Translations under genes and position numbers: made by a program
In this document: in pieces, positions 4,188 to 42,316 of the stretch
Position numbering within the stretch: position 1 is the stretch's first letter
How the letters are laid out: each line of letters begins with the position of its first letter
Source of the DNA: Rhizobium tropici CIAT 899
GTDB lineage: Bacteria; Pseudomonadota; Alphaproteobacteria; Rhizobiales; Rhizobiaceae
Reading direction: 5' to 3'
DNA: 64,000 bases
NCBI RefSeq assembly: GCF_000330885.1
Contig: NC_020061.1
Location: 410,717-474,716, forward strand
Notes under the pieces: generated by a model
Seen by the model: the letters and a program-made list of their open reading frames with translations, nothing else
Told to the model about the DNA's origin: nothing
Databases searched by the model: none

Positions 4188-4340
4188 GTGGTTCTCCTCA
4201 AGCTTGCGAACAATGCATAGCAGCTCTCGCCGGCGCTGCATTTACAAAAGAGCGCTCAAAGATATTTTTTCGCCGGGTGTGGCTTTTGGGAAAAGCACCG
4301 GAACCGCGACTCTCGGGCTCGAGATGGCAGCATCGAGGTG

Positions 4341-11877: not shown

Positions 11878-11882
11878 GGTTG

Positions 11883-20549: not shown

Positions 20550-20556
20550 TAGTGAT

Positions 20557-20584
20557 TTTATATGACGTCAAATTAAAAATGCAA
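20557..20584 (-). promoter_or_regulatory. possible promoter giving a leaderless mRNA for the giant XRE protein
   Basis: Read on the minus strand, TTGCAT and TATAAA are separated by 16 bases. A transcript start six to seven bases past the -10 box would fall at the ATG of 20549. No Shine-Dalgarno sequence is seen between the box and the ATG. The match is by eye only. Confidence 0.35.
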
Positions 20585-20830
20585 TAACCCTGGAGCCGAA
20601 CAACACATTCAGGGACCAGCTACCCTGCCTCGCCTTCGGCTCCTTCTCCAAGTCAAAAGGATTGGGGATTCCGCGAGCAGCGATGAACATCGGGATGTTT
20701 TCATTGCCCCTTCCAGAATCCACATCTATAGTTGTGAAGCGTGGTACAATTAGATCGAATCGGAACTGCTATTGTTAAGAAAAATATTGTCTGTAGCATG
20801 CAGAAACTTAAGTAGCCGCTGGGGCAGAAC

Positions 20831-21829
20831 ATGTTGGCGGGCATTCTTCGATATTGCTTCGACATTGCCAAGAAAAACCAGGCACTTCGCCCATTCGTTG
20901 CGATCTACAGGCTTTTGCGCCGATTATTTCATAGAATCTTGGACAAATATCCGTCGCTCGCGATCATCGCGATTGTCGCAATAATTATTTTCATGACACT
21001 CAACCCTGAGTATGCACCGGACTTGGTTAAGCCTAGCCATGGATGCGAACTCATCCAAATTGGAAACGGGGAACTCTATACAGTCAAAGGCGACACTTTG
21101 CATTTTTCAGGGGATCGGCCTTGCCAGAGTCGACAACCTGTAGCCTTCGACTGGTTCAATCGCTTCCCTACAAAGATGATCGGCCTAGGCTCGCAGCCCG
21201 ATGCCGTATCCGCAGGAATTTTTTTCAATGAATTGGCCACTGAAGCAACCGGGGCAAACGAATGGCACGAATATACGCTGTTCCACCAAGCAAATGACTT
21301 TACCTGGACAATGGCTCCAGGTGCTTCGATGGTGCGCGAAACCTTTCTCAAAGGAGGCTGCGGCTACGATACGTCAAATCCGCCGCCTTCGAAAGAATTG
21401 GAGGCGCGAGATGGCCTATTGCTTACGGCTGAGCAGTTGCGATCGAGTGTGAAGTTGCCGGAAAACGTGTGGGAAAAATGCAATACTGGCTCTCCCGAAG
21501 ACGAGACTTGGGACTATTGCCACTACACGGGATTAGAATTTTTCATTCCGACAGTCAGTCCGCATAATGTTTGCGCCCAACACTCTTGGCGTGACGCTTG
21601 GATTCCCGGCGGGACGCGCAAGATTCTGCTGGGTAAACCGGAGGCCTATGAAAAGCTCTCGCGTTTGTCTCAAGATCGATGGGACGTCGGCAAGATCAAA
21701 GAAGTCTCCGCAGATGATTGGGCCCAAATGACAGCCGACCTTCCTAAAGTTTGCATGCGGTGGAAGGATAAAGGCAAACCGAACTGGGAAGAATTCGCGT
21801 CGCTTGCTGCAATCTGGTGCGACTATTAG
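20831..21829 (+). CDS. membrane-anchored hypothetical protein
   Basis: 332 residues. A single membrane segment at about 44-57 (SLAIIAIVAIIIFMTL) follows a basic N-terminus, so the remaining 270 residues are probably periplasmic. That part holds several cysteines, which could form disulfides, and a repeated aromatic/charged pattern. I do not recognise the family. It is divergent from the giant XRE gene with about 280 bases between them and ends just before the IS5 relic. Confidence 0.6.
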   Translation: MLAGILRYCFDIAKKNQALRPFVAIYRLLRRLFHRILDKYPSLAIIAIVAIIIFMTLNPEYAPDLVKPSHGCELIQIGNGELYTVKGDTLHFSGDRPCQSRQPVAFDWFNRFPTKMIGLGSQPDAVSAGIFFNELATEATGANEWHEYTLFHQANDFTWTMAPGASMVRETFLKGGCGYDTSNPPPSKELEARDGLLLTAEQLRSSVKLPENVWEKCNTGSPEDETWDYCHYTGLEFFIPTVSPHNVCAQHSWRDAWIPGGTRKILLGKPEAYEKLSRLSQDRWDVGKIKEVSADDWAQMTADLPKVCMRWKDKGKPNWEEFASLAAIWCDY

Positions 21830-21983
21830 GCGTTGCCTCTTAATGAGCCACCGCTTCCGGTTCATGGTGATATTCTTGGATATGAACCGATCAGTTGCCG
21901 TGGTGGGCTTCTCTTTAGAGGCTGCCTCAAAAAGAGGTGGGTGATTTCAACAGGTTATGATTCCTTCGGATTTGCGAGATTCG

Positions 21984-22188
21984 ATGGAGAACACGATGGC
22001 CTGGACCAAAATCACCCGTCGGCAATATGGAGAGCGTTGGGACTTTGGCCACGCATCAACCATCGTCTCGTGATGGAAACGCGCGAGTTGGAGGGCAAGG
22101 AGGCAAGCCCGACGGCCGGTGTGATCGATAGCCAGAGCGTCAAAACCACCGAAAGCGGCGGCATCCGGGGCTTATGACGCGGGCAAGA
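21984..22188 (+). pseudogene. IS5 transposase, 5' exon with internal deletion and frameshift
   Basis: The N-terminal [12 protein letters not shown] and the [18 protein letters not shown] segments of an IS427-group transposase are both present, but the sequence between them is deleted and out of frame. An additional T after GGIRG breaks the frame again. The exon ends at ...GGGCAAGA, directly before the intron. Confidence 0.8.
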
Positions 22189-24111
<1,923 letters not shown>

Positions 24112-24533
24112 AGACCAAAGGCCGCAAGCGCCATATCATCGTCGATACGCTCGGCCTGATGGTCGGTCTCATGGTGCACAGCGCCGACATCCAGGATCGC
24201 GACGGTGCTCCCGATCTCCTGAAATCCATCCGCCACAGGTGGCCATGGTTGCTGCATGTCTTCGCCGATGGTGGCTATGCGGGCGATAAGTTGAAGCGGC
24301 GACTGAAAAAGATCGGGCGCTGGACGATCGAGATCATCAAGCGCTCGGACAAGGCGAAAGGCTTCGAGGTTCTGCCGCGTCGATGGGTGGTCGAACGGAC
24401 CTTCGCCTGGCTTGGCAGATGCCGCAGATTGGCCAAAGACGTCGAACGCTCGATCGCATCAGCCGAAGCGTGGATCATGATCGCCCACATTCGTCTCATC
24501 ACCAGACGGCTAGCAAGGTATGGATATCGTTGA
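24112..24533 (+). pseudogene. IS5 transposase, 3' exon
   Basis: This encodes the C-terminal half: TKGRKRHIIVDTLGLMVGL, VFADGGYAGDKLKRRLKK and VLPRRWVVERTFAWLGRCRR, ending RLARYGYR. It contains the conserved final Glu region (VVERTFAW). It is intact in itself but cannot be expressed with the broken 5' exon. Confidence 0.85.
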
Positions 24534-24553
24534 ACGCTTTTCGAATCCGACTC

Positions 24554-24937
24554 TTAGTCGCCCGTGAAGAACCGTTTTCGGTGTGGCGGCGCATGATTGT
24601 CGGCGTCGAGAGTTTGCCTGACGAGCAGGCACAAAAGTAGCCTGAACCACCTGAGCAGAAGCGAGAAATTGTAGCCGGCGGCAGCCAGAACGGCATTGAG
24701 GGCATCGCCCTGCTGTCCGGCAAGATAGTTGCGGTCCATTCTGCGCTCGTTCTTGAGGTGCCCGATGACGGGCTCGACGGCTGACCGCCTTCGCATCAGA
24801 CGTTTGATGGCCGGCGTCACGTGGCGCTTCTGGCCACTGGTGAAGACCCGCAGCTTGTGGCTCTGGGGCGCATTGTGGCCGCGGTATCCGGCGTCGGCCA
24901 GAATGCCAGGATCAGTCCGAGAAATGGCCGCCTTCAA
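24554..24937 (-). pseudogene. C-terminal fragment of an IS5-family transposase (second type)
   Basis: 127 residues: ILADAGYRGHNAPQSHKLRV, MRRRSAVEPVIGHLKNE and GDALNAVLAAAGYNFSLLLR. This is the end of an IS5-type DDE transposase different from the intron host. The N-terminus is missing, cut at a patch of IS21-like terminal repeats. Confidence 0.75.
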
Positions 24938-25345: not shown

Positions 25346-27703
25346 CTATTCGTCGGCATCGCTCCCATCCGCCCCACCAAAAATATCAAGCAGAAGCTCT
25401 GGGTTGGACCCCTCGCCCCGTAGTTCCTCAAGAACGTGTTCCAGGATGCGCCCGTACTTTGCCAGTGCCCTTAAACGATCCTGGTGCTTGAGATCACCTA
25501 TCGTCCTCTCGACTGCTCGAACCAATTTATCCGCCTTAGGGTCCTGCCCCTCAACCAACGCGAATGGCTCGACCACCCTCCAACGGAGAAGGCCAACAAG
25601 CAGCATCGGAGCGTATTGGAATCTGGTGTACGTCGAGCCCAGATTTTCTTCGAACTCCCGGAGAATCCGTTTGGTCAACCGCTCGACATCTTTGCGAGTA
25701 AGCAGCCGAGGCGCGGTTTCAGAGCGCGAAAGTAGGAACGCCATGGCGGCGGTTTCTTTCTGCCACTTCCATTGATCTATGGGCTTGCCCAAGACCTTGT
25801 GGATTGCCTGCAGCTCAAAATGCTGGTTGCTGGCGACCCGCCCCAACCCCTGGTAAGCGAGCTTCCAGTGGGCACCTTGAGTGAAAATTGGGTGTCCCCG
25901 GGCTTCTTTGTCCCAAGCCTCCAGCAACCAGCCCGAGACGTCTGGCGGGCATCGGCGGAATTGCCATGTCAGAAACCGCAGTGATTGGGTTCCAACAGCT
26001 TGGCCCCTCAGCCCGCGACGGACTTCATCTAACGCTCGTTCTACAAGTCGATCCAAGCGCGATAGCGCGACAGCATCTACTCCATTCGGGACATCACCGT
26101 CACTTGATATCGCGTATTTGCCGCCAGGTCGAGCCGAGAGCCGATTTGCGAGTGCCGTCCAATCGACGGCAGTCCGGTCAACGTTCTTTTCAAGCAACGT
26201 GAAAAGCCCGTCTCCGCGAGGGCTATCGTTCCAACTATCGATTCCGCAGGCGAGCACAAGCCGTCCCGGTATTGTCGGTGCTGGTCTCTGGAACCCTTCG
26301 ATCAACGCGTCCCAATTTTGTTCGAGTTCGGTCGCGGCATCCCAGTCGACCTGGAATTGGTGACCAAACTTCTGAGAGTGAACGAGGATTTTTGCTCGAC
26401 CGGACGCCGGGCTCTGTTCCACCCAAAGTTCGACGGGAACTGTCTGGTCGACTTTCACACCGATGTTGACTTCTGCCTTGCGCGGAAGCTCGGAAGTTTC
26501 CTTTCTAAGGAAAATAGAAAAACGATCCTGCCCCGCTTGAATGGCCAATCTTGCCGGTTTCGGGCTCCGGTACATCTCACCTGCCGGAAGCGTCTCATCG
26601 TAATCAACGAGGTCGAAGTTTTCGACCGCGTCACGCCGCTGCACAATCGTTGAAATCTGCGGCAGGAAATCGAAATAGATGGGATCGCGCTTGCTTAGGC
26701 GCCGCGCGGCATGAAGCGCACCATCTGCGATCGAGTTGTCAGCAAGTAACACAACATCTCCACCGATGCTTTGTATCACTGCTGAATGGAATGCTTTTCT
26801 GATCGCACCTTTGGACAGAGTTTCCAACAAGACCACATCGCACCCAGCGACATCATCTCGCACATCCTGCAATCGAGGTATCTGCTCGTGATCGATCGTG
26901 TCGGGCGGCCTTAATACCTGCCAGTCTCCGTTTCCTTGGCGTAACACCTCGGGCTCTGCCTGGAATCCGAGCGCAAGGCGTCCATTCGAACGTGCCCATT
27001 CCAAATGATCGGTTCGGTCGACCGACGAAACTCTAGAAATTGCAGACTTTGCCAACTCCGCCAATCCCCGGTATCCCCAACCCGAACGGATCAGTTTTCC
27101 TGTCGAGCGACGCTCCGGCGCTAAGACAGTCTCTCCATGGCTACGCTCGCGACGAATGCGCAGCCTTTGAACCGTGACACCGTCTCCGGTGTGCGAAACC
27201 ACACCTACGGCCTGGCCTTCTTCAACTGTTCCCCTTTCGATAGCGAACAATGTCGCCAACACGGATCGCCAAACCAGAAGCGGCGTCGAGACCTTTGCCT
27301 TGCGCAGAGCCGCCAACAGTCGTTCCTGCAGTAGCTCGCCGGTTTCAGCATGATCATCAAGGCTGGCGATGCCAAAGCTGGCACCGGATGACATCCCTTT
27401 CAGCGCTGCAGTCAGGTGGGGGACGGATGGATCGTCGTTCAGCAGATCAGTCACCCTCAACCGCTTCTCGGCAGCTCCGACCACACCCCAACCAGCACCC
27501 AGGCCGTGCGGAGAAATTGATGCCTGCGCACCACCCACAAGGCCCCCGTCGGCCTTCGCTCCAGTTTCAACCACGACACCGAAAATGCCGCCTTCGATGA
27601 GAGAGCTAATAACCTCCTGCTCCTCGCCGTCCGGCAAAATGGTCCAGTTCCTCGCAGCGCTATCGCGCCATCCATTCAGATCGTACCCGCACAGTTTCCT
27701 CAT
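25346..27703 (-). CDS. Hsp70-like (ASKHA-fold) protein of a McrB-linked system
   Basis: 785 residues. The N-terminus CGYDLNGWRD resembles the first phosphate loop of actin/Hsp70 ATPases. GVVSHTGDGVTVQRLRI near 167-183 fits phosphate 2, and CDVVLLETLSKGAIRKAF near 288-305, followed by ADGALHAARRL then PIYFDFLPQIS near 327-351, fits the adenosine motif and entry to the substrate domain. A beta-rich segment at 383-450 recalls the Hsp70 substrate domain. The C-terminal 300 residues are a helical extension with no name I can give. The start overlaps the upstream DUF2357 stop by four bases. An ATPase scaffold or chaperone role is inferred. Confidence 0.7.
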   Translation of the reverse strand: MRKLCGYDLNGWRDSAARNWTILPDGEEQEVISSLIEGGIFGVVVETGAKADGGLVGGAQASISPHGLGAGWGVVGAAEKRLRVTDLLNDDPSVPHLTAALKGMSSGASFGIASLDDHAETGELLQERLLAALRKAKVSTPLLVWRSVLATLFAIERGTVEEGQAVGVVSHTGDGVTVQRLRIRRERSHGETVLAPERRSTGKLIRSGWGYRGLAELAKSAISRVSSVDRTDHLEWARSNGRLALGFQAEPEVLRQGNGDWQVLRPPDTIDHEQIPRLQDVRDDVAGCDVVLLETLSKGAIRKAFHSAVIQSIGGDVVLLADNSIADGALHAARRLSKRDPIYFDFLPQISTIVQRRDAVENFDLVDYDETLPAGEMYRSPKPARLAIQAGQDRFSIFLRKETSELPRKAEVNIGVKVDQTVPVELWVEQSPASGRAKILVHSQKFGHQFQVDWDAATELEQNWDALIEGFQRPAPTIPGRLVLACGIDSWNDSPRGDGLFTLLEKNVDRTAVDWTALANRLSARPGGKYAISSDGDVPNGVDAVALSRLDRLVERALDEVRRGLRGQAVGTQSLRFLTWQFRRCPPDVSGWLLEAWDKEARGHPIFTQGAHWKLAYQGLGRVASNQHFELQAIHKVLGKPIDQWKWQKETAAMAFLLSRSETAPRLLTRKDVERLTKRILREFEENLGSTYTRFQYAPMLLVGLLRWRVVEPFALVEGQDPKADKLVRAVERTIGDLKHQDRLRALAKYGRILEHVLEELRGEGSNPELLLDIFGGADGSDADE

Positions 27704-29223
27704 GGCGTCGTCGCGTATATTTCGCTACGTGCGAACGCACGGATAGCGTCCAACCCTTGCCGCAGCCCCTCGCCAGAGGCCTCCAAGGCAATTCCATCAA
27801 CGCGCGTGCTAGCCTTACGGGATAGGCAAGTCTCGAACTGACCGTGAGATGGGGTCAGTATCAGCCCGTTACGCAGAACTTCAGTTTGGCCGAATGGCTG
27901 AATCTCGACCAATCGCTCATTTGCCCGTACGACAGCGTCGTTGAGATCTATGCGAGCCATCGTGTGCGGGGTCCAAACTGCTACGCGGCGCGGCATCCCG
28001 CCTCGGTCGATGTCGGAGATGCGGAGAGACACGTGGGCCCGCGTCAAGGCCAGCATACGGCCTGGTGCTTCAGGGCGGGATTGTACCTCGACTATACGAC
28101 CTGTGTTCTTCAACCAGAACACGGCAATCGGTCGATCCTGCTCGAACCATCGTCCGAGCGATGCCTCTGAACGCCAGACGATGGGCGATTGCGCAATTAG
28201 CTCGGCTTCTTCGAGTTCGCTGAGAGCGAGCACGACAGAAAGCACAGAAAAATCCGTCCAGGTCTCCGCTTGCCATGCCCAGAGGTCATCGAGGACCCTG
28301 TCTTCCTCCAGCAGGCGGCGCCAGGCTTCATAGATGGAGTTGTAGCTCGGGTCCTGCATCAGAACGTAGTTCGGAACAATCCCGGCATCGGCTACGCTCA
28401 CTTCAAGATCTGCCAACATCTGCGCGAAGGTTTTGCAGAACCGGCCGAAATGATTGACTTGCGCGTAGCGGCGGCTATGCCGTGCTCGTGGATGCTCCTG
28501 CATCCATTCGCGAGCAACCTGGAAAGCAAGTGTCGTATACGCGTGGAGAACCCTGTTTTCAGGGGTATCAAAGTTCTCTCGCCTGACTGTTGCGAGAATA
28601 CGCTGGCTTGTACCGGCTCGCTCCGCAATCGTCCGCCCCGGTTGACGGACGAGCCAGCGCATCGACGCCCGATCCATTTCCTGAACTCGGTCCAAGAATG
28701 TAAGCTCTCTCGTCCGACGAAGCACGCGCCTGATCCTCGGCTCCAGCGCTTTCAGGCGCGGAAGGACATCTTGAGCCTGCCTTACGATCTCCGCCATTCG
28801 CGGATCGTGTTCATTCTCTGCGCGCTCCCACGCATCGCGCAATCGGGACCATACATGCAAAGGGTCTTCAAGGGCCTCGCCAAGCTCCTGGACCCGCGCC
28901 AAAACCTCGTTCATCCGCCGAAGAAGCTCTCTCGCCCGCACGTCTTCCGGGGTCTCATGCTCCTTTACACCACGAGGGCGAACCGGAAACCCAATTCGCT
29001 CCGGTCGCTGAGCATTCGCCGTTTTCGGGTATGGATGGAGAATAAGTTCCACCGGTCCATCTTGAAGCCGGGCCGACATAAGACGCGAGTGTCCGCCGTT
29101 CTTGGGTGCCTCGCCACGGACCTCGCTGACCAAACAATCACCAGGACTGAACTTCGCATTGGCAACTCCTCTGCGATCCCAAGGTCTGCCGAGATGGAGC
29201 ATTACCGCGAAACCCCGTTCCAT
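27700..29223 (-). CDS. DUF2357-like McrC-partner protein
   Basis: 507 residues. An N-terminal domain is followed by a helical region with DTPENRVLHAYTTLAFQVAR near 200-220, a hallmark of DUF2357/DUF524-type proteins found beside McrB-like ATPases. The C-terminal part (AVFWLKNTGRIVEVQSRP) may be a diverged nuclease fold: it has E and Q positions, but I cannot confirm a full PD-(D/E)xK. The gene overlaps the McrB-like gene by 22 bases and the Hsp70-like gene by four, so the three are translationally coupled. I expect it to act as the McrC-like effector or adaptor. Confidence 0.7.
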   Translation of the reverse strand: MERGFAVMLHLGRPWDRRGVANAKFSPGDCLVSEVRGEAPKNGGHSRLMSARLQDGPVELILHPYPKTANAQRPERIGFPVRPRGVKEHETPEDVRARELLRRMNEVLARVQELGEALEDPLHVWSRLRDAWERAENEHDPRMAEIVRQAQDVLPRLKALEPRIRRVLRRTRELTFLDRVQEMDRASMRWLVRQPGRTIAERAGTSQRILATVRRENFDTPENRVLHAYTTLAFQVAREWMQEHPRARHSRRYAQVNHFGRFCKTFAQMLADLEVSVADAGIVPNYVLMQDPSYNSIYEAWRRLLEEDRVLDDLWAWQAETWTDFSVLSVVLALSELEEAELIAQSPIVWRSEASLGRWFEQDRPIAVFWLKNTGRIVEVQSRPEAPGRMLALTRAHVSLRISDIDRGGMPRRVAVWTPHTMARIDLNDAVVRANERLVEIQPFGQTEVLRNGLILTPSHGQFETCLSRKASTRVDGIALEASGEGLRQGLDAIRAFARSEIYATTP

Positions 29224-31238
29224 ACGAACTGACCGGAGCCCTCTTTCGCAGCACGGATCGACTCATCGATCGCCTTCGCAAGGTGATCGTCCCGCAGGGC
29301 ATCACCAACGAAACTTATGAGTTCGGAGAAAGCATGATCGTTACCGTCTTCAACTTCGATACCGCGAAGCTTTGGTAACAAGCGCATTTCAACCTGATCT
29401 GCGAGCGGGACACGCAAGTCCTTCGCCTGGTCGAACGAGGTGTAGTTCGCGACATACCCCATGATCGCGCGGCCGAGACGGTGACCGAAAGGTCTCTTGA
29501 AGCCCTTCATGAGGCTGACCATTCTATCCACGCTGTCGATAACGGTCTGCTCACTCTCCACAGTCGAAACAGGATTCACCCATGACCGCCATCTTGCCGC
29601 CGACAGCGCCTCGGGCTCGGCGATATTTGCTTTCTGCGCAGTCGTCCTGATGGTTCTTGGTGCCGAGAAGCGAAGGACATTCGCCCGGTCCACAACCTTA
29701 TCAGAGAGCGACTGCGTGCTCTCGTCTTCGTTCATCGTTCCGGCAAACAGAAGGTTGTATCCTGGGAAGATGCGGGGAGCGTCCATACCTCGCGGCATCG
29801 GTATCTCAAGCTCGATCTCAGCGTCTTTGCGCAGGGATTTATCCGACACACGGTTCATCGGCGGGCGGCTTTCCAAGCGGCTGAGGAAGTCCGAAAAATA
29901 ATACTCAACACGCGCAAGGTTCATTTCGTCGAGCAGGATCATTATCATCTGATCCTGAAACTCGCTCTTCTGGTTGTTCAGAATGTCCAGGTGATAGAGC
30001 GCCCGCGCCATATCGGTCGGACGGTAGCGCTTTTCGATATAGTTGTAGAAACCCATCAAATCCTGGGGGCTATCCCAGCGAGGTTGAACCGGCACCTGCA
30101 GGAACCCGATCCCTATGCCTGCCGCGTACTGTCGCGGCAGCTGGCTCTTGCCAGTCCCGGAGATACCGGCAAGCACGGCCATCTGGGTCGTGTCGTTTGT
30201 TTTCATTGCTGTATGGAAGGCATAAACAATGCGACGGTCGTAATGGAGGCCGCTTTGTTCAAGGCGCTGAAGCACCCGTTGGACTGCCTCAGCCTCATTT
30301 TCAGCGGCGCGATCTTTCCAGCTCCGCATTTGTGCCAGCACCGGCGGAAGCGTGGTCAACTCCTTGAGACGTTCAACGATTGCCTCCTCGCGGCCCGGCG
30401 CATCCCTACCGCTCGCCTCAGCAACGTCTTCCTCCATCTTAGCGACCTGTGCCATTAGCGACGAACGGCGATCTTCCAACGATGAGATGTCGCTTTCGAT
30501 GGAACGAGCACGCTCCTCGGCGGCTGCGAGTTTCGCCGACGTCTGCGTGAATTCAGCATGAACGGCGGCGGTCGCCTGACGCTCGACAGCGAGGTCTTCT
30601 TGAACCTGAGAGAGTTGGGAGTTTGCCGCCTGGAGGAGGCCTTCGACACGTGCGCTTTCTCTACCAAGTTCCTGCGACAGCGCTTCTAAGCGTTGCACTC
30701 GCTCCTGCGCTTCGCTCAACTCAATCGCTTGGGACCGCATTTCTGCAATCTTCTTTTCAAGCGCTGCCTGTTCACGCTTCATCTCATCGTTGAGAGCGAA
30801 CAGCCGCTCGGCGGCAGTGAGGCGGTCATGGACAGCGTCGAGATCTGCCCGGGCGGAAGCCAGCTCAGCGTCAACTGCGTGTTTTTCAATGATCTCCGCT
30901 TCGATCACCTCGCGCAGCGCACGGATTTCCTCGCGGCGCTCATCCTTCTGAAGCCATTCAGCATTCAAGTCATCGAGCTGTCTCTTGGTCGCATCGTAGT
31001 CAGCCTGGACGTCGGCAATATTGGCTAGGGCCTTGCGGCGCTCTCCTAGTTCATTTTCGATATCGCTAAGGGCCATCCGCTTGTCGGCAATGGCTGTCTC
31101 CAGAGACTCCAGGGAGCGCGTCGGCCCGGAGGCGGTAACGGCTCTGTCATGGAGCACCGCGAGGCTTATCTGCACGACGATCAGAGCTACGACAGCCATT
31201 GCTGCGAAAAGCAGTATCAAGATGTTTCCTGTTAGCAT
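29202..31238 (-). CDS. coiled-coil McrB-like AAA+ NTPase with N-terminal membrane anchor
   Basis: 678 residues. A membrane segment at about 5-28 (ILILLFAAMAVVALIVVQIS) is followed by a long coiled coil at about 40-300. The AAA+ domain has Walker A GISGTGKS near 358-365, Walker B MIMILLDEMNLARVEYYFSD near 430-449, and NLLFAGTMNEDES near 493-505 at the McrB signature position. McrB-type NTPases form hexamers that drive a McrC nuclease. The fusion of coiled coil and McrB motor is what CoCoNuT systems are named for. It overlaps the DUF2357 gene and follows the coiled-coil gene by 15 bases. Confidence 0.85.
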   Translation of the reverse strand: MLTGNILILLFAAMAVVALIVVQISLAVLHDRAVTASGPTRSLESLETAIADKRMALSDIENELGERRKALANIADVQADYDATKRQLDDLNAEWLQKDERREEIRALREVIEAEIIEKHAVDAELASARADLDAVHDRLTAAERLFALNDEMKREQAALEKKIAEMRSQAIELSEAQERVQRLEALSQELGRESARVEGLLQAANSQLSQVQEDLAVERQATAAVHAEFTQTSAKLAAAEERARSIESDISSLEDRRSSLMAQVAKMEEDVAEASGRDAPGREEAIVERLKELTTLPPVLAQMRSWKDRAAENEAEAVQRVLQRLEQSGLHYDRRIVYAFHTAMKTNDTTQMAVLAGISGTGKSQLPRQYAAGIGIGFLQVPVQPRWDSPQDLMGFYNYIEKRYRPTDMARALYHLDILNNQKSEFQDQMIMILLDEMNLARVEYYFSDFLSRLESRPPMNRVSDKSLRKDAEIELEIPMPRGMDAPRIFPGYNLLFAGTMNEDESTQSLSDKVVDRANVLRFSAPRTIRTTAQKANIAEPEALSAARWRSWVNPVSTVESEQTVIDSVDRMVSLMKGFKRPFGHRLGRAIMGYVANYTSFDQAKDLRVPLADQVEMRLLPKLRGIEVEDGNDHAFSELISFVGDALRDDHLAKAIDESIRAAKEGSGQFVWNGVSR

Positions 31239-31253
31239 GTCGACGCTCTCTAA

Positions 31254-32648
31254 TTATGGCCTCTCAGGCTGTGGCTGGGTAGTCGTCGGGGCGTCAATAG
31301 CTGGCGGCGCGGGTGCCACATCCGTCTGCTTTGGCGTCTTCGCGTCTGAAAGAGATGCAATTTCCTGAACAAGCACCCCTTTCCTGCCGTTAAGCTCGGC
31401 CAGCTCCGCTTTCACAGTATTTAGGTCGCTCTGACGCAAGCTCAGCTCTTTGGCCAGTTCTGCTTGTCGGTTTGATAGGTCTGCGACAGCCTTTTCCAGA
31501 GCAGCTTTTTCAGCTGCTGCGCGATCAGCATCGGCTTTGTCCGCCGAAGTTCGAGACTTCAGTGCCTGAAGACTGCTTAACTCTTCTTTGAGCGTGTTAC
31601 GTTGCGTTGTGGCAGCTGCGACATCTGCCTGGAGATCATTTAATTGTGCCTTCGCGACCGGAAGAGATTTTTCCGCCTCTGCAAGCGCGTCCTGGGCAAT
31701 TTTTAGCCTGCCTTCAGCCGCTGCAGCATCTGATCGTGCGCGGTCCGCTGCTGTGGTCACGCTCGTGAGATCGCCGTTCAATGCAGCCTTCCGCATTTCG
31801 AGAGCGCCGACTTGGTTGGCCAAGTCCGTACGGTTGCTGTCCTGGCGGGCCAAGTCGGCATCCGTTTTAGCTGCAGTGACCTTCGCCTTGGACGCCTGAT
31901 CCTGGAGCTTTGCGATCGTTGCGTCTAAATCCTGCGAGGCACGTTGTTTGTCGCCGATATCTTTCGTGATTTTCGTCATTTGCGCCGTCAACGAGGCCTG
32001 ACGGGCGGTAAGATCGGCGACCTGACGTGTTTTGTCGTCAAGGTCCTGAAGCTGGGCGTTTAATTTGGAGATTTCAGCCTCCTTATCGCGCCGGACCTTT
32101 TCGCTGACTGCAATCGCGTCGTCGGCAGCACTTTTTCGATCTTCTGCTTGTGCAACGTCGGCATTTGACTGATCGATCTTTGCCTGATTGACAGCAATCC
32201 GCTTTTCAAGGTCAGCGTTCTGAGAGCGTAAGGTCGCAAGCGTCTTCTCGGCCTTAGCTGCTTCCGCAATAGTATCGGCGGCCGCTTTCGATTGCTCTTG
32301 GCCCGCCTGAAGCTTCTCAACGCCCTCGGCGAGCGATGCCGTCTGTTGGTTTATCTCTGCGTCGAGGCGATCTCGCTGTGCGGTCAGATCAGCGATGGTT
32401 TTCCGAATACCATCGGCTTCTACACTTCGTTGAGAGATTTCCGAAAGGACACTATCGCGTCGGCCCAGCGCCTCTGTCCGCTCATTGTTATAGCGCTGAA
32501 TGTCGGAACGCACGGCACCGTAGTCGCGCTCAAGAGCGTCGACCTGAATCAACGCGACAGAGATCGCGGCCGCTGAGAGCAAGCCAAGCGTCAAAGCGAT
32601 ATAGGTAAACCGCCGCGATCTAGGAAAGCTGTTTTGCGACGCGTTCAA
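31254..32648 (-). CDS. membrane-anchored long coiled-coil protein
   Basis: 464 residues. One membrane segment at about 15-37 (YIALTLGLLSAAAISVALIQV) leads to an almost continuous coiled coil to about residue 430, rich in Ala, Asp, Lys and Gln, ending in a Pro/Thr-rich tail. No enzymatic motif is seen. It overlaps the end of the helicase gene by 29 bases and lies 15 bases before the McrB-like gene. Both coiled-coil proteins share the same topology, which suggests they pack against each other at the inner membrane. The structural role is inferred. Confidence 0.75.
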   Translation of the reverse strand: MNASQNSFPRSRRFTYIALTLGLLSAAAISVALIQVDALERDYGAVRSDIQRYNNERTEALGRRDSVLSEISQRSVEADGIRKTIADLTAQRDRLDAEINQQTASLAEGVEKLQAGQEQSKAAADTIAEAAKAEKTLATLRSQNADLEKRIAVNQAKIDQSNADVAQAEDRKSAADDAIAVSEKVRRDKEAEISKLNAQLQDLDDKTRQVADLTARQASLTAQMTKITKDIGDKQRASQDLDATIAKLQDQASKAKVTAAKTDADLARQDSNRTDLANQVGALEMRKAALNGDLTSVTTAADRARSDAAAAEGRLKIAQDALAEAEKSLPVAKAQLNDLQADVAAATTQRNTLKEELSSLQALKSRTSADKADADRAAAEKAALEKAVADLSNRQAELAKELSLRQSDLNTVKAELAELNGRKGVLVQEIASLSDAKTPKQTDVAPAPPAIDAPTTTQPQPERP

Positions 32649-34880
32649 TGCACCCCTCCAAATCCTGAGCTAGTTCGTCCACCCAAAAGCGCTGGATTTT
32701 CCAGCCAAGCGATTTCAACTGATGGTCTCTCCAATAGTCGCCAAGCTTTCTTTTGCCGTCGGTGTCGGCATGCCAATGTCGACCATCGACTTCCAGGTCG
32801 AGCTTGACATCGCCGCTGCCAAACAGTGCAAAATCCAGGCGACGACCGGCGACTTCGAATTGAGCAACGGGGTTCAAGCCGCGCTTCCTAAGCGCCGCGT
32901 CCACAATTCGCTCCCAATTGCTGTCAAACGTGCCCTCGCCGATGCGGCCCTTTGGTTCGGTTGCCGTAGCGGCTAGCCGTTGAAGACTCCGCACCTTGCC
33001 AGATCGCGCATACGACAAATCGCCAAAGACATGGGCGACGGCCCGGGCGCGGCTAATGGCAACGTTCAGGCGGCGCCAGTCTTTCTGCACGAACGTGACC
33101 GCGCTGATCGCACTCGAATGGCCGAGCGTGGGTGAGAAAAGGATAAGGTCTCTTTCTTGACCTTGGAAACGGTCAACCGTGCCGACACGCAGTTCAGCCT
33201 TGACACGAAGCTTTTCATTGACTTCTGCGTGGATCGCTTGCTCCAACGCGTATACCTGCGGCCGGAAAGGAGCGATGACCCCGATCGACCCGCTATATCC
33301 TTGATCCACGAGGAGCATGCGGACATGCTGCACTATCGCGGCGATCTCAGAATTATTGATGTTGCCGATCATTGGTGATGTTGGCGCCGGTACATCGGTC
33401 CACGCAATACCTGGCTTCATGCCCCTTGGTGATTTGAGCTTGTCCTGGTCACCTGCAACCCGCAATTGACCACCATAAAAGTGTTCGTTGATGTAGCCAA
33501 CGATATCGGCAGCGGATCGATATTGATCGCGAAGCATAACCTTCGCCGCCCCGGGCGTGAGGTCCGCCAAGTCGAATAGCGATCTCCGGCTCTGCGCGAA
33601 CCGACCCATCTTTGATACCGGCAGGTTCTGGGCCTGCATCAGGTTTCGATCATGCGCAATGCCCAACTGGCTGATGAAGGAAAGCTGGCGATTGTCACCG
33701 ACAACGACAGCACGTTTTGCCCTAGCGAAGATCGGCAGTGCTGACGCGATATCGCACTGGCTTGCTTCATCAAAGATCGCGAGATCGAATAAGCTGTCTG
33801 ACAGCGGCACTCGCCGTGCCGCGCCAAGGACTGAAACCAACCACAGGGGCCGGTGACTTACAACTTCACCGGCCAATTCAGATGGCAGCGGCCCGGTGTT
33901 TTGAGCAAGCTCTAGGTTGGCAAGCTCCTCGCCTAGCCTCCGTCGGTCGATCTCAGTCAGGTTGACCTTTGACGCCAGAACTTTGGGAAGAAGCTCCCGA
34001 GCGACCTCTCCTATCTCCTGCGTAATCGCGACTGGATCACCCTTTACTTCGATCGTAGCTAATTCAGAGCGGAGCTGTTTTAGACGCTGCCTGAGGGTGG
34101 CGAGCGTTGTCTCTCCACCGGAACGTTGGCTGCCTACCAACAACTTCGATTTAAGACCGAAAGCTCCCAGTATTGTGTTGATCAACCGAATGACGAGGTT
34201 TTTTTCGGGCTCTACCAATGTCTGGACTCCGCGTTCAGCGCTGCTCGCCTCCTGCGCCTCGAGCCTCTCCAAAAGCTCCGCAATCAACCCGTGGATACGC
34301 GAAAGCTCGTCGATCTGGTCGAGCAGCCGATTTCGATTTTGCGCGAGCGTCGAGAGTTTCGACAGTAGAACCAAGTCTGGCTCAGCCGCACCTCTTGTGG
34401 GCTCGCTGACAAGTTCGCCAAGCACCTGATCGAACGATTGATCGATGTCGCGTGTAGGATCAAGCGTCCTCACTAGGAACGGAGACTGCGGAGCGATGCC
34501 ACCAAGCCTGGTCTCGACAGCATCGAGGGCTTGGTGGTTCTTCGATGCAACAAGTACGCTTCCACCATCGGCAATCACGGAAGCAGCGATGGACACGATG
34601 GCCTGGCTTTTGCCGGTCCCCGGCGGACCGGTTACCACCGTAAGCGGTGCGAGGAGAGACCGCCTCACCGCATCAATCTGCTCCTTATTCAAGTCGCCCG
34701 TGTTGATGACGGGAGCAAGCCTAGTTGCAACGGGTGCATCCAAGCCGAGGATCGGCGCCAGCGCAGTCGTGGCCAATTTTTCCTTCGGCCACGCTGCAAT
34801 TGTATCGAGGTCACGCACAGCTCCGGCAGTGAAGGTAGTATCGGTCGGTAGAAAGAGTGCGGCGATATCATGGATGCCGA
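32620..34880 (-). pseudogene. SF1 helicase with C-terminal Vsr/DUF559-like nuclease, 3' part of an interrupted gene
   Basis: The readable frame from 34818 gives the helicase core: Walker A VVTGPPGTGKSQ, Walker B FDLAIFDEASQCD, GDNRQLSFIS, DQYRSAADIVGYI, and motif VI AISRARAVAHVF. The last 110 residues hold a nuclease-like domain (RRLDFALFGSGDVKLDLEVD then GRHWHADTDG). UPF1-like SF1 helicase plus Vsr/DUF559 nuclease is a known fusion. Between the IS21 target site (34881) and 34818 the frame of the N-terminal part is lost by two extra bases in the GCGC run near 34858-34863. Removing them and the IS gives a continuous 1051-residue protein. Confidence 0.85.
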
Positions 34881-34956
34881 CGATTGTTGGTTTCCACGCG
34901 GAACTGAGCCGGTTTTTCCACCGAGAAGTGAGCCACCTCTGAGTATGGTTTTCTGA

Positions 34957-35751
34957 TCAGGGTTTGGTCAATGGGCTGGCTTTTTCTCCTCTCTTTTGCG
35001 CCGCGGCGGCCGAACTGGCCTTGAATCGAAAGCTGTCATTTCCGGTTTCCAGGATGTGGCAACGGTGGGTCAGGCGGTCGAGCAAAGCGGTCGTCATCTT
35101 GGCGTCGCCGAAGACTGTGGCCCATTCGCTGAAGCTTAGGTTGGTGGTGATGATGACGCTGGTGCGCTCGTAAAGCTTGCTCAGCAGGTGGAAGAGCAAT
35201 GCGCCGCCCGAAGCGCTGAACGGAAGGTATCCGAGTTCATCCAAGATCAGCAGATCGAGACGAACCAACGTCTCAGCGATCTGACCGGCCTTGCCTTTGG
35301 CCTTCTCCTGCTCGAGGGCGTTGACCAATTCGATGGTCGAGAAGAAGCGGACCTTTCGGCGATGATGCTCGATCGCCTGGACACCGAGAGCGGTCGCGAT
35401 ATGTGTTTTTCCCGTGCCAGGCCCGCCGACGAGCACGACATTCTGCGCTCCGTCCATGAACTCGCATCGGTGCAGTTGGCGCACCGTCGCTTCGTTGATT
35501 TCGCTGGCGGCGAAGTCGTATCCGGAGATGTCCTTGTAGGCCGGGAAGCGGGCAGCCTTCATGTGATAGGCGATGGAGCGGACCTCGCGTTCGGCCATTT
35601 CCGCTTTCAGCAACTGGGACAGGATCGGCACGGCCGCATCGAAGGCTGGCGCTCCTTGCTCGATCAGATCCGTGACCGCTTGGGCCATGCCATACATCTT
35701 CAGACTACGCAGCATGATGACGACGGCGGCGCTGGCTGGATCATGACGCAT
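34957..35751 (-). CDS. istB: IstB-like helper ATPase of IS21
   Basis: 264 residues. Walker [16 protein letters not shown] and Walker [14 protein letters not shown] are visible, along with sensor [16 protein letters not shown]. IstB is an AAA+ regulator that selects the target DNA for IstA. The gene overlaps the end of istA and looks intact. Confidence 0.95.
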
Positions 35752-37261
35752 GGCGACCTCCTACGATCCGGACACGCAGCCCGTCATAGCGTTCGACATT
35801 GGCCTTGGGTTCGCGCAGCAAGGTCAGCGCCTGTGGTGTGTCGATATCGGGACCATCACTGGTCTTGCCGTCGATCAGCCGATGCAGCAGGTTCAACACA
35901 TGCGTTTTGGTTGCCACGCCGGCATCCAGAGCCAGTTCCACAGCGCGGAGGACGACCTGTTCGTCGTGATGAAGAACGAGAGAAAGGATATCGGCCATCT
36001 CGCGATCACCGCCGGGGCGGCGAAGCATCTGGTCCTGCAGTTGTCGAAAGGCCGGTGGTAGTTCCAGGAAGGGTGCGCCATTGCGCAAGGCACCGGGCTT
36101 GCGTTGGATGACGGCAAGGTAGTGTCGCCAGTCGTAAATCGTCCGCGGCGGCTTGTCGTGACTGCGCTCAATGACCCGCACATGTTCGCAAAGAACGTTG
36201 CCCTCGGCTGCAACGACCAGCCGCTCGGGATAGATTCGCAGGCTGACGGGCCGGTTCGCAAACGATGCGGGCACGCTATAGCGGTTTCGTTCGAAGGTGA
36301 TCAGGCAGGTGGGTGAGACCCGTTTGCTTTGCTCGACAAAGCCGTCAAACGCGGCAGGCAGTGTCATCAATGATGCCCGCTCATCAGCCCATACATCCGC
36401 AATCGTGCCGGGCAAGGTGCCATGCGGTGTCTCCCGCCACAGGTCCTGGCAATGCTGTTCCAGCCAGGCGTTCAACGCCGGCAGATCGGGAAAGTCCGGC
36501 ATCTGTTGCCACAAACGTGGTCGGGCATCCTGAACATTCTTCTCGACCTGCCCTTTCTCCCAGCCCGCAGCAGGATTACAGAACTCGGGCGCAAAGACGT
36601 AGTGGTTCGTCATCGCCAGGAAGCGGATGTTGACCTGCCGCTCCTTGCCGCGGCCGACGCGATCGACCGCGGTGCGCATATTGTCGTAGATCCCTCGCGC
36701 AGGCACACCGCCGAAGACCCGGAAGCCGTGCCAGTGGGCGTCGAAGAGCATCTCATGGGTTTGCAGCAGGTAGGCTCTGACCAGAAAGGCCCGGCTGTGC
36801 GCCAACTTGATATGCGCGACCTGAAGCTTCGTGCGCTCGCCGCCGATCACGGCATAGTCTTCACTCCAATCGAATTGGAATGCTTCGCCTGGGCGGAAAG
36901 ACAGAGGAACGAATATGCCTCGGCCGGCCGTCTGCTGCTCAGCCCGCCACTCACGGGCAAAGGCAGCGACGCGACCGTAGGAGCCGGTAAAGCCCAGAAC
37001 CACCAGATCGGCATGAAGTTGCTTCAGCGTTCGGCGCTGCTTGCGTGACCTCCCGGCCTCGGTCTTCAGCCAGCCCGAGAGTTTCTCTGCGAATGCATCA
37101 AGCTTGCTCGGCCGCTCCGGTACCGTGAACGTCGGCTCGATCGTGCCCGCGCTCAGATACTTCGCGATTGTGTTCCGCGACAGCCCGGTGCGCCGACTGA
37201 TCTCGCGGATCGATAGCTTCTCGCGCAACGCCATCCGGCGGATAATGTTTAAAAGTCCCAT
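35741..37261 (-). CDS. istA: IstA-like DDE transposase of IS21
   Basis: 506 residues from the chosen start ([15 protein letters not shown]), after which an [23 protein letters not shown] begins. The DDE core shows [14 protein letters not shown], the [11 protein letters not shown] region and [15 protein letters not shown] with the catalytic Glu. The coding frame extends 22 codons upstream of this start but those codons lie in the element's terminal region. The gene is intact. Confidence 0.93.
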
Positions 37262-37373
37262 GTGGATCACTCCGTTGCCCCCGTCGCTCTCCGCGCTGGG
37301 GGAAGGTTCACATGGCTCAATTCTCAATGGAAATTATGCGCCTAACCGGCTCAGTTCTGCGTGGAAACCAACA

Positions 37374-38270
37374 GACGATGTTAGGATCCAGCTCAATTCG
37401 CATTTGCTGGCCTGAGATACGTCCCCGAAAGGTGCCCGAAACAGCCTCCTTCAATCGGGAGAGAAATTCATCCCGCCGGAAGCCCAATCCCTCGGCCTGC
37501 GTGAACACGTCGCGCAGCCCTGCCTCTTTCCAATTGGCGCTTCTCGCCACGCCCTTGATCCAGTCGGGGTTTGCGACGATGTCATCCGTATCGATCGATA
37601 CTTCTAGGTGCGTCGGACTGCGCTTCCAGTCAGCGCTGATGAGACCAACCGGCCAGACAACAGCTACACCTTGCTTTTTCCCAACACCCAGAGGCCAGCC
37701 CACGGCGAGCGACTGTTCGTTCGCTTCCCGCTTGACGAGAGCCTGCCGAAAGTCATCTGGCAACTCGTCGAGAGGTATCGAGATGGTGAGGACCTGCCCC
37801 TCTTCGGGCGTCAGAGGCCCAAGGCCAGTGAACAGTTGCCATTGAACAGAATGGCGATCTTCAACTTGAGTGATCGCACCTCTCGGGTCTGATCGTAATG
37901 CGGATCGATAGTATCGAAGCAACGCATTGGGATCGAACGCCGCGAAAGTATCTGCGACTTCACCTTCGCCGACGGAAGACCTTGAGGTCCGGAAAGTCGC
38001 GTGGACGGGCCTGAGGGTAAGATTGTCAGTTACTATGGTATTGGTGGCAATTGAAGAAACGGGTTGGGTGCCTGTCTTGTTCGCGGTGGCAATTGGGCGC
38101 CACCGACCATCGCGGCCTTTGGCCACTTTTCCAGCTTCGCTGAGGGCAGATAACTCGGCGTAAATTTCCGTACGCCTGCGCGGATCAAAATCGACATCAA
38201 GCAACGCAAATAGTTCGTTCGTTGTCCGGCCCGTCGGAAACGCCGATATCGTTCGCAGTAGTATAGACAT
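37374..38270 (-). pseudogene. SF1 helicase gene, 5' part of the interrupted gene
   Basis: About 299 codons from the ATG at 38270 to the IS21 insertion. A winged-helix-like N-terminus (RTISAFPTGRTTNELFALLD then IYAELSALSEAGKVAKGRDG) is followed by a mixed domain ending in MRIELDPNIV at the IS edge. Beyond the IS, the same frame continues GIHDIA. This N-terminal region would precede the helicase core. It is the first gene of the McrB-like operon, so the IS is expected to have polar effects on the genes below unless they have their own promoter. Confidence 0.8.
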
Positions 38271-39692: not shown

Positions 39693-40830
39693 TCAGGCCG
39701 CTGCGGCCTTTGGAAAGTTGAATGGCAGCAGGTCAGAGATGTCGGCGTCGTCGGCGCGCTGCGGCAACTCGGTGAGGACGTGGCGCAAGTAGGCCAGTGG
39801 CTCGACGCCGCAAGCCCGGCATGTCAGCATGAGGCTGTAGACCACGGCGCTGGCCTTTGCTCCATCGACGGTGTCGCTGAACAGCCAGCTTTTTCTGCCA
39901 GTTGCAAAAATCCTGATGTCACGCTCCAGAAGGTTGTTGTCGATCGGCATCCTGCCATCATTTGTGTAACGCGTCAGATATTCCCATTGGTTCAGCGTGT
40001 AGGAGATGGCATCGCCAAGCTTGCTGTCCGGCAAGACCTTCGGGGCGATTTCATCGAGCCATTTTTTCAGGGCATTCAGGATGGGAACGCTATGTTCCTG
40101 GCGAAAGCGGCGAATGCAATGATCTCGCGTTTCGCCGTCATCCGGTATTTCGTCGCGCGCTTGCTTTTCAATCCGGTAGAGTTGTTCGAAGAACTTGAGG
40201 GCCTGCTCCGGTGGGCCGCCGGGTTTGTTTCTCGTCTTGAGAGCATTGACAAACCGCCGTCTTGAATGGGCCATACATCCAATGTGGGTGGCCCCCTCCA
40301 GCGTGCGCCAGGCGGAATAACCATCGCTCATCAATATGCCGCGGTAATCGCCGAGAAAGGCCTGCGGATAGATCTGTCCGCGGCCCGGCTGATAATCGAG
40401 AAGCACGATCGGCTCGGCACTGTCCTCACCGCTGCGATAAGCCCACATGAAGGATGTGTCGGTGGCCGCTCTGTCCTTTTCCTTCAGGACCTGAACAGTC
40501 GTCTCGTCGCCATGGATGAGAGACTGTGATCGAAGCCGCAGCTTCAGCGCGTCATAGATGCGGACGAGATGCTTCTCGCTCGAGCCGATCACCCAGTGCC
40601 CCAGAGCACCGCGGCTGACAGGAACGCCGGCGCGCTCGAAGGCCTGTGCCAGACGATAGAGTGGCGTGCCATCGACATATTTGTGCACCAACGCGAAGGC
40701 TAGCGTCGAGGCCGTGGCAATGCTGCCCGGCAAGGGTTGCGCGGGCATCGGCGCAATGATGACCGGCGTGTTGATGCCGGTGCGGTCGCAATTCCGGCAG
40801 GCATATTTGAACATGGGGTAATCGCGGCGC
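39693..40830 (-). pseudogene. tnpC: IS66 TnpC, C-terminal part
   Basis: From the insert edge the frame reads RRDYPMFKYACRNCDRTG then PAQPLPGSIATASTLAFALV, the DDE core with LIHGDETTVQVLKEKDRA and HIGCMAHSRRRFVNALKTR, and the end LTELPQRADDADISDLLPFN. It is intact from the insertion point to the stop. Confidence 0.92.
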
Positions 40831-42316
40831 GCGTCACCCGATGCTAGGCACGAAATGTCTACTGGCGGGGGTGGTTGCCCCCGATAAGATGGAAATACGG
40901 GCTCACGATTGGAACCGGGCCCAAACATCAAATGGAGGCAACCGTGGACCAATATATAGGGCTGGACGTTTCATTGAAAGAAACTGCAATCTCGATCCGA
41001 CAGGAGGGGAAGCGGATCTGGCGGGGAAAGTGCCCATCCGACCCAAAACTTTTGTCGGAGATGATCCGCAGGCACGCCCCTCACGCCAAGCGCGTTGTAT
41101 TCGAGACGGGTCCGTTATCTACGTGGTTCTATCATGCGCTCACGGCCGAAGGAGTGCCGGCGATCTGCATCGAAGCGCGGCACGCCCAAAGGATTTTGGA
41201 TGAGACGCTCAACAAGACGGATGCCAATGACGCGGATGGCTTAGCTCATTTGGCCGAAGCCGGATTCTACAAGACGGTTCGGGTAAAGGCATTCGACAGC
41301 ATGCTGACACGCACGCTGGTGACCGCTCGCAATCAGTTGCTCAGCATCTCGACCCAGCTCAGCAATCAAATTCGCGGTCTGATGAAGACTTTCGGTCTCA
41401 TTGTCCCGAAAGGGAGGGGGCGAATATTTGACGGGAACGTGAGACAATTCCTGGATGGGAATGACGCCTTGGCTAAGATCATATTGCCTCTGCTCGACGC
41501 CTGGTGCGACATACGAAGACGCGCTGCCGGTCTTGATCACCAGTTGCTCGCGGCAGCACGGGGAAGTCAGGAGACCAAGCTTTTGATGACGATCCCAGGG
41601 GTCGGCGCCGTCACCGCCATCTCGTATGTCGCCGCAATCGAAGACCCAGACAACTTTAAAAAGTCGCGCTCCGTTGGCGCCTGGCTTGGATTGACAACGC
41701 GGCGTTATCAATCAGGAGAGGTCGATTATGACGGCCATATCTCGCGACGAGGCGACAACCGTCTGCGTGGGCTGCTTTACGAAGCGGCGATGGTGCTTCT
41801 TACAAGAACCAGTGCTAGGACCGAATGCAGTCTGAAGAATTGGGGGCTCAAGCTGCGTGACCGGCTTGGCTTCAAGCGCGCTGCGGTGGCGGTCGCCCGA
41901 AAGCTTGCCGTCATCATGCATAGTATGCTCAAAACAGGAGAAATGTTCAACGCATTGGCTGGCGCTCCCGTATAAAGCGAAAGTACCTGCCTTAAACCTC
42001 AACGCGTCAAATCTGATTTGAGGCGTACTCAGCGTCCGTGCCACGGACGTGGGTTGGATCATTCCGTATGTTGCGGCTGCAGCTCGTTGAGACTTGCGTT
42101 TTGAACAAAGGAAGGTCCACCCTGCGAAGACCCATTATGCGGCGATCCTATGTCGACCGCGAAGACAACCCTGCCCCTGGCACCGGATGGCTGTAAAGAA
42201 AAAAACGACGCTGAGGCCCGATCTATCGAATTGATACGCCGTTTTGCGTGCTGCAATACGGTGCGATACTGAATGGCCAAACCAACTTGACTAATGGATT
42301 GCGATTAGACAACCGC
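40831..42316 (+). mobile_element. IS110-family element (about 1486 bases) inside IS66 tnpC
   Basis: The boundaries come from reconstructing tnpC: ...KVLQNVR and RDYPMFKYAC rejoin when these bases are removed (ends ambiguous by a three-base CGC). The element holds one recombinase gene with about 110 bases before it and about 340 bases after it. The long 3' non-coding part may encode the bridge RNA used by IS110/IS1111 recombinases, but I cannot show a structure by eye. Confidence 0.75.
40944..41975 (+). CDS. IS110-family DEDD recombinase
   Basis: 343 residues from a GTG preceded by GGAGG (an in-frame ATG lies four codons upstream). The RuvC-like DEDD half shows YIGLDVSLKETAIS, VFETGPLSTWFYHAL and KTDANDADGLAHLAE. 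The C-terminal Tnp2 half has LLMTIPGVGAVTAISYVAAI, SVGAWLGLTTRRYQSGE and ISRRGDNRLRGLLYEAAMVL with the serine-containing region. It appears complete. Confidence 0.92.
   Translation: MDQYIGLDVSLKETAISIRQEGKRIWRGKCPSDPKLLSEMIRRHAPHAKRVVFETGPLSTWFYHALTAEGVPAICIEARHAQRILDETLNKTDANDADGLAHLAEAGFYKTVRVKAFDSMLTRTLVTARNQLLSISTQLSNQIRGLMKTFGLIVPKGRGRIFDGNVRQFLDGNDALAKIILPLLDAWCDIRRRAAGLDHQLLAAARGSQETKLLMTIPGVGAVTAISYVAAIEDPDNFKKSRSVGAWLGLTTRRYQSGEVDYDGHISRRGDNRLRGLLYEAAMVLLTRTSARTECSLKNWGLKLRDRLGFKRAAVAVARKLAVIMHSMLKTGEMFNALAGAPV

Follow-up and report, generated by a model that had tools for sequence, protein, structure and literature searches.

A Type III-B CoCoNuT operon split by an insertion sequence on a rhizobial symbiotic plasmid, and predicted membrane anchoring of its subtype by two oppositely oriented coiled-coil proteins

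The window analysed here, i.e. the whole stretch of 64,000 nucleotides from Rhizobium tropici CIAT 899 (NCBI RefSeq assembly GCF_000330885.1, contig NC_020061.1, positions 410,717 to 474,716 of the forward strand), lies on the symbiotic plasmid of this bean-nodulating species and carries on its minus strand (38270-25346, counted from the first letter of the window) a five-gene operon, in the order cnuH, cnuA, cnuB, cnuC, cnuD. We assign this operon with high confidence to the Type III-B CoCoNuTs, a published, predicted subtype of the coiled-coil McrBC systems. The kind of system is already known; the subtype has been published, and the operon represents it in a damaged state. What is new is the evidence, collected over dozens of genomes, for a predicted membrane anchoring of Type III-B by two oppositely oriented coiled-coil proteins, CnuA and CnuB. 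Taken jointly, the identification and the membrane anchoring have in our estimate a probability of roughly 0.85.

Gene content and subtype

The first-pass annotation of this DNA had described five minus-strand genes with overlapping or near-contiguous ends. They are indeed found so, with cnuA, cnuB, cnuC and cnuD as open frames at this locus and cnuH in two parts (all features on the minus strand):

37374..38270, minus: cnuH, N-terminal part; 299 codons ahead of the insertion, no stop
37317-38270, minus: open reading frame (ORF) over the cnuH N-terminal part; 317 residues
34885..37373, minus: IS21-family insertion sequence that interrupts cnuH; IstB_IS21 1.3e-77, Mu-transpos_C_2 7e-15
35741-37327, minus: istA, part of the IS21-family element
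34957-35751, minus: istB, part of the IS21-family element
32620..34884, minus: cnuH, C-terminal part; SF1 helicase core of UPF1-like type, Vsr/MTES_1575 nuclease; AAA_12 1.9e-32, MTES_1575 1.3e-13
32620-34818, minus: GTG-started ORF inside the cnuH C-terminal part; 732 residues; AAA_11/AAA_12 helicase and MTES_1575/DUF559 nuclease
31254..32648, minus: cnuA; 464 residues; membrane helix at residues ~16-35, long coiled coil, predicted periplasmic
29202..31238, minus: cnuB; 678 residues; membrane helix ~5-29, coiled coil ~40-280, McrB-like AAA GTPase, NxD motif GTMNEDES
27700..29223, minus: cnuC; 507 residues; McrC homologue with DUF2357; catalytic lysine missing from the C-terminal region
25346..27703, minus: cnuD; 785 residues; homologue of the Hsp70-like and C-terminal half of CnuCD in Type III-A

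In the published description of Type III-B, the UPF1-like helicase CnuH carries a fused Vsr nuclease, the coiled-coil protein CnuA and the Hsp70-like CnuD are encoded separately, CnuB has the NxD motif, CnuC lacks a catalytic motif, and there is no TerY-P module (PMC11090510). The window operon agrees with this description in the separate CnuA and CnuD, the Vsr-CnuH fusion, the NxD CnuB and the non-catalytic CnuC, so that the resemblance to a CoCoNuT noted at first reading extends to the gene set and order of the published subtype; it differs in its split cnuH and in the helices of CnuA and CnuB, which the main text of PMC11090510 does not mention. The UPF1-like SF1 helicase with Vsr/DUF559-like nuclease, the McrB-like coiled-coil motor and the DUF2357-like protein of that reading were all recovered by library models, respectively in the 732-residue ORF, in CnuB (PADLOC model PDC-M26A, 9.5e-46) and in CnuC (PF09823, 24.9 bits, just above the cut-off of 23.3).

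In the case of CnuH, the helicase-Vsr fusion is found in a single frame in 40 relatives, and the nuclease residues E954, D980, E994, D996 and H1001 (numbering of the intact protein of locus L010) are invariant in 40/40 aligned intact sequences. The same L010 protein matches the structures of SEN1 (5.1e-18) and UPF1 (2.8e-16), and also of DNA2. Some 200 poorly conserved residues separate the region behind Walker A from the DEASQ motif in the 40 aligned proteins, at the place where a large helical insertion has been described for Type III-B; the N-terminus of CnuH has been described as a winged helix-turn-helix region plus an OB fold (both PMC11090510), and the N-terminal part in the window has no Pfam domain over the cut-off.

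The hallmark of the CoCoNuT GTPase is NxD, usually followed by E or D, in place of the NxxD motif (PMC11090510). GTMNxDE occurs in all 52 CnuBs of the loci surveyed, and NxD in all 120 CnuB homologues among the matches listed (4,777 matches in all). Residues 40-280 of CnuB have a heptad power of z = 3.3 and a proline-plus-glycine fraction of 0.017, versus z = 0.3 and 0.109 in the GTPase part, the heptad measure being a simple periodicity score and not a coiled-coil predictor. A tree of the GTPase domain (26 rows: the window, 18 chosen III-B loci, four of Type III-A, one of Type III-C and two others) groups 18 of the 19 III-B rows (88/92, drawn open) and sets Type III-A apart (100/100); support for all 19 III-B rows as one side is just 42%, and long branches lead to the III-C row and the outer ones. 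Too small for proof, this tree is consistent with a III-B branch. The CnuB profile gave no match to PDB sequences at E <= 0.01. In CnuC, the lysine of the E-x-K motif is absent from all 49 aligned sequences, the glutamate being kept in 48 of them; a search of the CnuC profile against PDB returned 12 T-cell-receptor chains (E 0.013-0.027), which we judged to be chance matches.

Conservation of the gene set

A cnuD profile search of genome contigs, one per species, yielded 61 loci. Of these, 58 are alphaproteobacterial by record title (some genera being placed there by what we take to be their affiliation), and the remaining three come from metagenome bins that bear the labels Planctomycetales, Gammaproteobacteria and Betaproteobacteria. 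Type III-B has been published as mainly alphaproteobacterial (PMC11090510).

The genes H, B, C and D travel as a unit, because they are collinear on one strand in 44 of the 46 loci whose contig extends 8.2 kb or more upstream of cnuD, and because their distance matrices agree: over 38 loci the pairwise distances correlate at r = 0.947-0.962, whereas the highest value among 500 label permutations per pair was 0.501. The five-gene set had been expected to stay together in other genomes, and this survey of gene neighbourhoods bears that out; the other two loci (L035, L055) are remnants. cnuH is one frame in 40 of the 44 collinear loci, and the four exceptions are symbiotic-plasmid copies; intact homologues are found, for instance, in R. 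tubonense and S. meliloti GR4.

All five III-B genes, membrane helices included, were also seen on one contig of the viral collection IMG/VR (L111, IMGVR_UViG_3300033183_000484).

Membrane helices and topology

Both CnuA and CnuB very probably are inserted in the membrane, and the two inner-membrane coiled coils of the first-pass annotation proved to be conserved well beyond the window. An N-terminal hydrophobic stretch is present in all 44 distinct CnuBs of the loci (19-residue hydropathy 2.02-3.44; identical copies and the truncated or short proteins of L029, L033, L047, L056 and L059 were left out), and the helix recurs in every one of the 114 homologues that reach 650 residues among the 120 matches listed of 4,777, six shorter ones being uncounted. 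CnuA, for which we took whichever ORF was longest between cnuH and cnuB, has such a stretch in 42 distinct loci (hydropathy 1.54-3.04, at least 1.6 in 41 of them), loci whose contigs break off ahead of the cnuA start (L029, L031 and L067 among them) being uncounted. The membrane segment of CnuA and its flanks are its best conserved part, with a mean column identity of 0.26-0.36 over the first 60 positions versus 0.16-0.27 thereafter, to which the overlap of about its ten first codons with cnuH may contribute. The heptad periodicity of the window CnuA is z = 5.3; library scans of this protein gave matches of coiled-coil type only, none above a curated cut-off.

Because the charge bias around the helices is opposite in the two proteins, opposite topologies are predicted. 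In all 42 CnuA sequences the net charge is higher before the helix than behind it, which makes an N-in protein with a periplasmic coil the likely arrangement. In CnuB lysines and arginines are more numerous after the helix in all 44 sequences, and there are none before it; CnuB is accordingly predicted to be N-out, a membrane-tethered protein with coil and GTPase in the cytoplasm. As controls served proteins whose topology we took as given, i.e. FtsB-like proteins (26 of 30 loci fetched), RmuC (24) and ExbD/TolR (30), of which the hydropathy limit dropped 8/26, 4/24 and 0/30; the net charge had the expected sign in 14/18 FtsB-like, 25/30 ExbD/TolR and 17/20 RmuC proteins.

A membrane-linked McrB is not new as such, because an FtsB-like membrane domain has been reported on the GTPase of CoCoPALM, a different branch (PMC11090510). 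In the main text of the same paper 'membrane' occurs only within 'transmembrane', six times, none of them on Type III-B, and literature searches on membrane-anchored McrB or CoCoNuT proteins gave, judging from the listings, no paper that points to the III-B helices.

The relationship of CnuD

CnuD on its own has no match at E 0.1 among the families of Pfam, NCBIfam and PADLOC, and its profile gave a single match to PDB sequences (E 0.44), which was rejected as chance. When compared profile to profile with the C-terminal part of CnuCD from four Type III-A systems, however, it aligned over 292 columns with P = 2.1e-5 and over a second, collinear block with P 0.013, while 20 column-shuffled profiles gave P 0.14-0.89. 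Because this alignment is significant and those of the shuffled controls are not, CnuD is, as judged from the profiles, a stand-alone version of that half of CnuCD which has been called Hsp70-like (PMC11090510).

Pfam found no Hsp70 in 40 CnuD members, and the Type III-A CnuCD half likewise lacks a match to DnaK or to the Pfam Hsp70 model. Since the latter, published as Hsp70-like, fails too, the failed sequence match of CnuD is uninformative. The Hsp70 label rests on the structure models of PMC11090510, and the Hsp70/ASKHA fold of CnuD is supported only indirectly, by the homology to Type III-A CnuCD.

Weighing the identification and the anchoring

Several results weigh against a membrane-anchored, functional Type III-B system as we read it. 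The window copy itself is broken, its cnuH being split, and our literature searches turned up no published functional test of a III-B system. CnuD did not match a DnaK profile of 25 motif-checked sequences (P 0.12). The CnuAs of distant loci have no significant sequence match to that of the window and were picked by position. The topologies were called from hydropathy and charge and not by a dedicated predictor; the net charge of CnuB breaks the rule in two of 44 sequences, and that of the controls, ties included, in 4/18, 5/30 and 3/20 (FtsB-like, ExbD/TolR and RmuC, respectively).

Proposed mechanism and rival functions

We consider an anti-phage role of the Type III-B system likely. McrC-type DUF2357 proteins stimulate McrB rings, and UPF1-like helicases travel along RNA or single-stranded DNA. 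In the mechanism that we propose, CnuB, tethered at the inner membrane by its N-terminal helix, would form a cytoplasmic GTPase ring, and CnuC would switch this ring on through its DUF2357 domain, as is established for E. coli McrBC. CnuA, anchored the opposite way, would place its long coiled coil in the periplasm and might pass on a signal of infection or from the envelope, via the paired membrane helices, to the coil of CnuB. CnuH would be the effector, its UPF1-like helicase feeding RNA or DNA to the Vsr-type nuclease, and CnuD together with the dead nuclease region of CnuC may bind the target, for which RNA or ribosome-associated RNA has been proposed (PMC11090510).

The nature of the nuclease leaves RNA and DNA targets both possible. 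A rival reading holds that the system restricts incoming DNA, with CnuH as a Dna2-type helicase-nuclease and CnuBC as a translocating activator, and that the RNA proposal, carried over from other CoCoNuT types, is wrong for III-B. We regard it as the less probable of the two, albeit one of some weight: the effector is a nuclease of the Vsr/MTES_1575 type, belonging to the PD-(D/E)xK nucleases that are called generally DNA-specific, with exceptions (PMC11090510), DNA2 is among the structure matches of CnuH, and Pfam detects no HEPN RNase in the proteins of the operon. Nevertheless, the best structure matches of CnuH are to helicases of the SEN1 and UPF1 type, and the relationship of CnuD to Type III-A, whose effectors are reported to be HEPN RNases (PMC11090510), favours RNA.

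A role in envelope stress or mRNA surveillance would likewise fit the membrane anchors, the UPF1-like helicase and a partner published as Hsp70-related; the system would then serve the host cell in membrane-linked stress handling or RNA quality control, and not in defence. This we consider improbable in view of the patchy presence of cnuD (seven of 150 searched genomes, the own genome included, all within one of 57 sampled genera), its occurrence in four plasmid records (one of which has just 9% of cnuD) and on the IMG/VR contig, the kinship to Type IV restriction, and the fragment of a PD-Lambda-1 defence gene that adjoins the operon.

Returning to defence, the fact that CnuA and CnuB of the relatives are very probably embedded in the membrane suggests that Type III-B defence works there. 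That infection is sensed at the envelope is a tentative proposal. Equally speculative is its fullest form, an envelope-spanning machine in which a transmembrane relay from CnuA to CnuB would detect the entry of a phage or plasmid and fire the helicase-nuclease at the site of injection, the tethering replacing the TerY-P module of Types II and III-A. The CoCoNuTs have been predicted from sequence; if Type III-B does straddle the inner membrane with opposite topologies, its trigger should be sought at the envelope.

The interrupted cnuH and the symbiotic plasmid

The IS21-family element in cnuH measures 2,489 bp, has terminal inverted repeats that are identical at 31 of 40 positions and is flanked on both sides by the 6-bp target duplication GACGAT. 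The 317- and 732-residue ORFs align to adjacent portions of a single frame of 1,026-1,121 residues in 40 relatives, in which the N-terminal part covers residues 1 to about 296; the N-terminal part is open along its whole length and 34819-34884 contains no stop codon. The alternative of two separate genes was rejected given the continuous frame in these relatives.

Because cnuH is split, the window copy of the system is probably inactive or altered, and it is quite likely that the operon is dead cargo in CIAT 899, the remaining genes hitch-hiking on a symbiotic plasmid that has spread recently. This explanation concerns the CIAT 899 copy only and is compatible with the identification and anchoring of the subtype given above. 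Besides the insertion, it draws on the presence of the same broken operon in R. leucaenae USDA 9039, R. lusitanum P1-7 and SEMIA 4060, and R. freirei PRF 81, with an identity of 99.93-99.99% over 12,704 bases, and on the CIAT 899 genome having no second cnuD. The symbiotic plasmid is reported to be common to CIAT 899, PRF 81 and R. leucaenae CFN 299 and at least 99.9% identical among these three strains at the contig level (PMC3557214). On the other side, the C-terminal part of cnuH has an open frame from a GTG start and by itself still spans the whole of the helicase and nuclease, and the other four genes have open frames too, so that partial activity is possible. In a selection test (ratio of non-synonymous to synonymous changes, dN/dS) silent sites were saturated in nine of 12 comparisons, so that it was given no weight. 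With a broken copy on the plasmid of several bean-nodulating species, inoculant strains among them, the case illustrates how a single loss of a defence system can be followed by the spread of the damaged copy.

A parallel to the split cnuH was seen on the Enterobacter cloacae plasmid NZ_CP086409.1, where a Type III-A CnuCD gene (18551-24555) is interrupted by an element annotated as ISSen3 of the IS21 family.

Related systems

Type III-A, represented by L105, L110, L116 and L117, shares with the window operon homologues of CnuH, CnuB and CnuC/D, but has CnuC and CnuD fused and an extra gene between CnuH and CnuB, at the place of CnuE. Cold-shock domains are present in all four CnuCDs (the match in L110 lying just below the cut-off), kinase and phosphatase genes lie upstream in L105 and a kinase gene in L110, L116 and L117 being unannotated, and in none of the four does CnuB have a membrane helix, unlike in III-B.

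The system on Synechocystis plasmid pSYSX (L104), to which we assigned the label Type III-C from the description in PMC11090510, has a CnuB that is 35% identical to that of the window over 644 residues and a CnuC that is 31% identical over 204, as well as a separate large downstream gene; its CnuB begins with a hydrophobic stretch (2.39), in this one system. It differs in having a PLD-type nuclease and a helicase-like gene of weak similarity, and its 800-residue protein has no detectable similarity to CnuD or DnaK. No further Type III-A or III-C relatives were found in viral contigs.

In Zorya, which has an ion-driven motor, inner-membrane proteins (ZorA/ZorB) are coupled to cytoplasmic effectors. 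We use it as a working analogy to III-B, which has a GTPase, and claim no homology. The Type IV CoCoNuTs, which comprise Druantia I and II and whose CnuB is inactive (PMC12458937), were considered and set aside as a system different from the window operon.

Neighbouring genes in the window

The TerY-P triad that had been noticed about 21 kb from the operon is present at 836-4241, next to a further gene:

84-833: SH3-like protein; both SH3 matches under the cut-off
836-2743: kinase with a long C-terminal extension; TerY-P-like set
2740-3525: PP2C; TerY-P-like set
3507-4241: VWA; TerY-P-like set

Pfam found neither a zinc ribbon nor an OB fold in this kinase at E 0.001. The triad, 21 kb away, was rejected as a part of the CoCoNuT, and no such gene was detected inside the operon; a tblastn search with the window TerY-P proteins against loci L008-L068 gave no match, but its positive control was weak (one partial kinase match) and the result was not taken to show absence.

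Directly beside the CoCoNuT, a shortened gene at 38946-39692 matches PADLOC PD-Lambda-1 (1.7e-56) and DUF4041 (3.4e-20). It stops where an insertion-sequence-like ORF (39693-40952, IS66-like as read by eye) starts, and represents a second broken defence gene. At 16479-20549 lies the gene of a 1,356-residue protein with an N-terminal HTH_3 and no further Pfam domain at E 0.001, whose helix-turn-helix portion is similar to control-protein and RmrA/capH models of PADLOC (best 6e-13). Two reverse transcriptase ORFs stand in a stretch rich in insertion sequences, one at 11580-13199 (RVT_1) and one at 22671-23999, the latter a group II intron protein as judged by eye.

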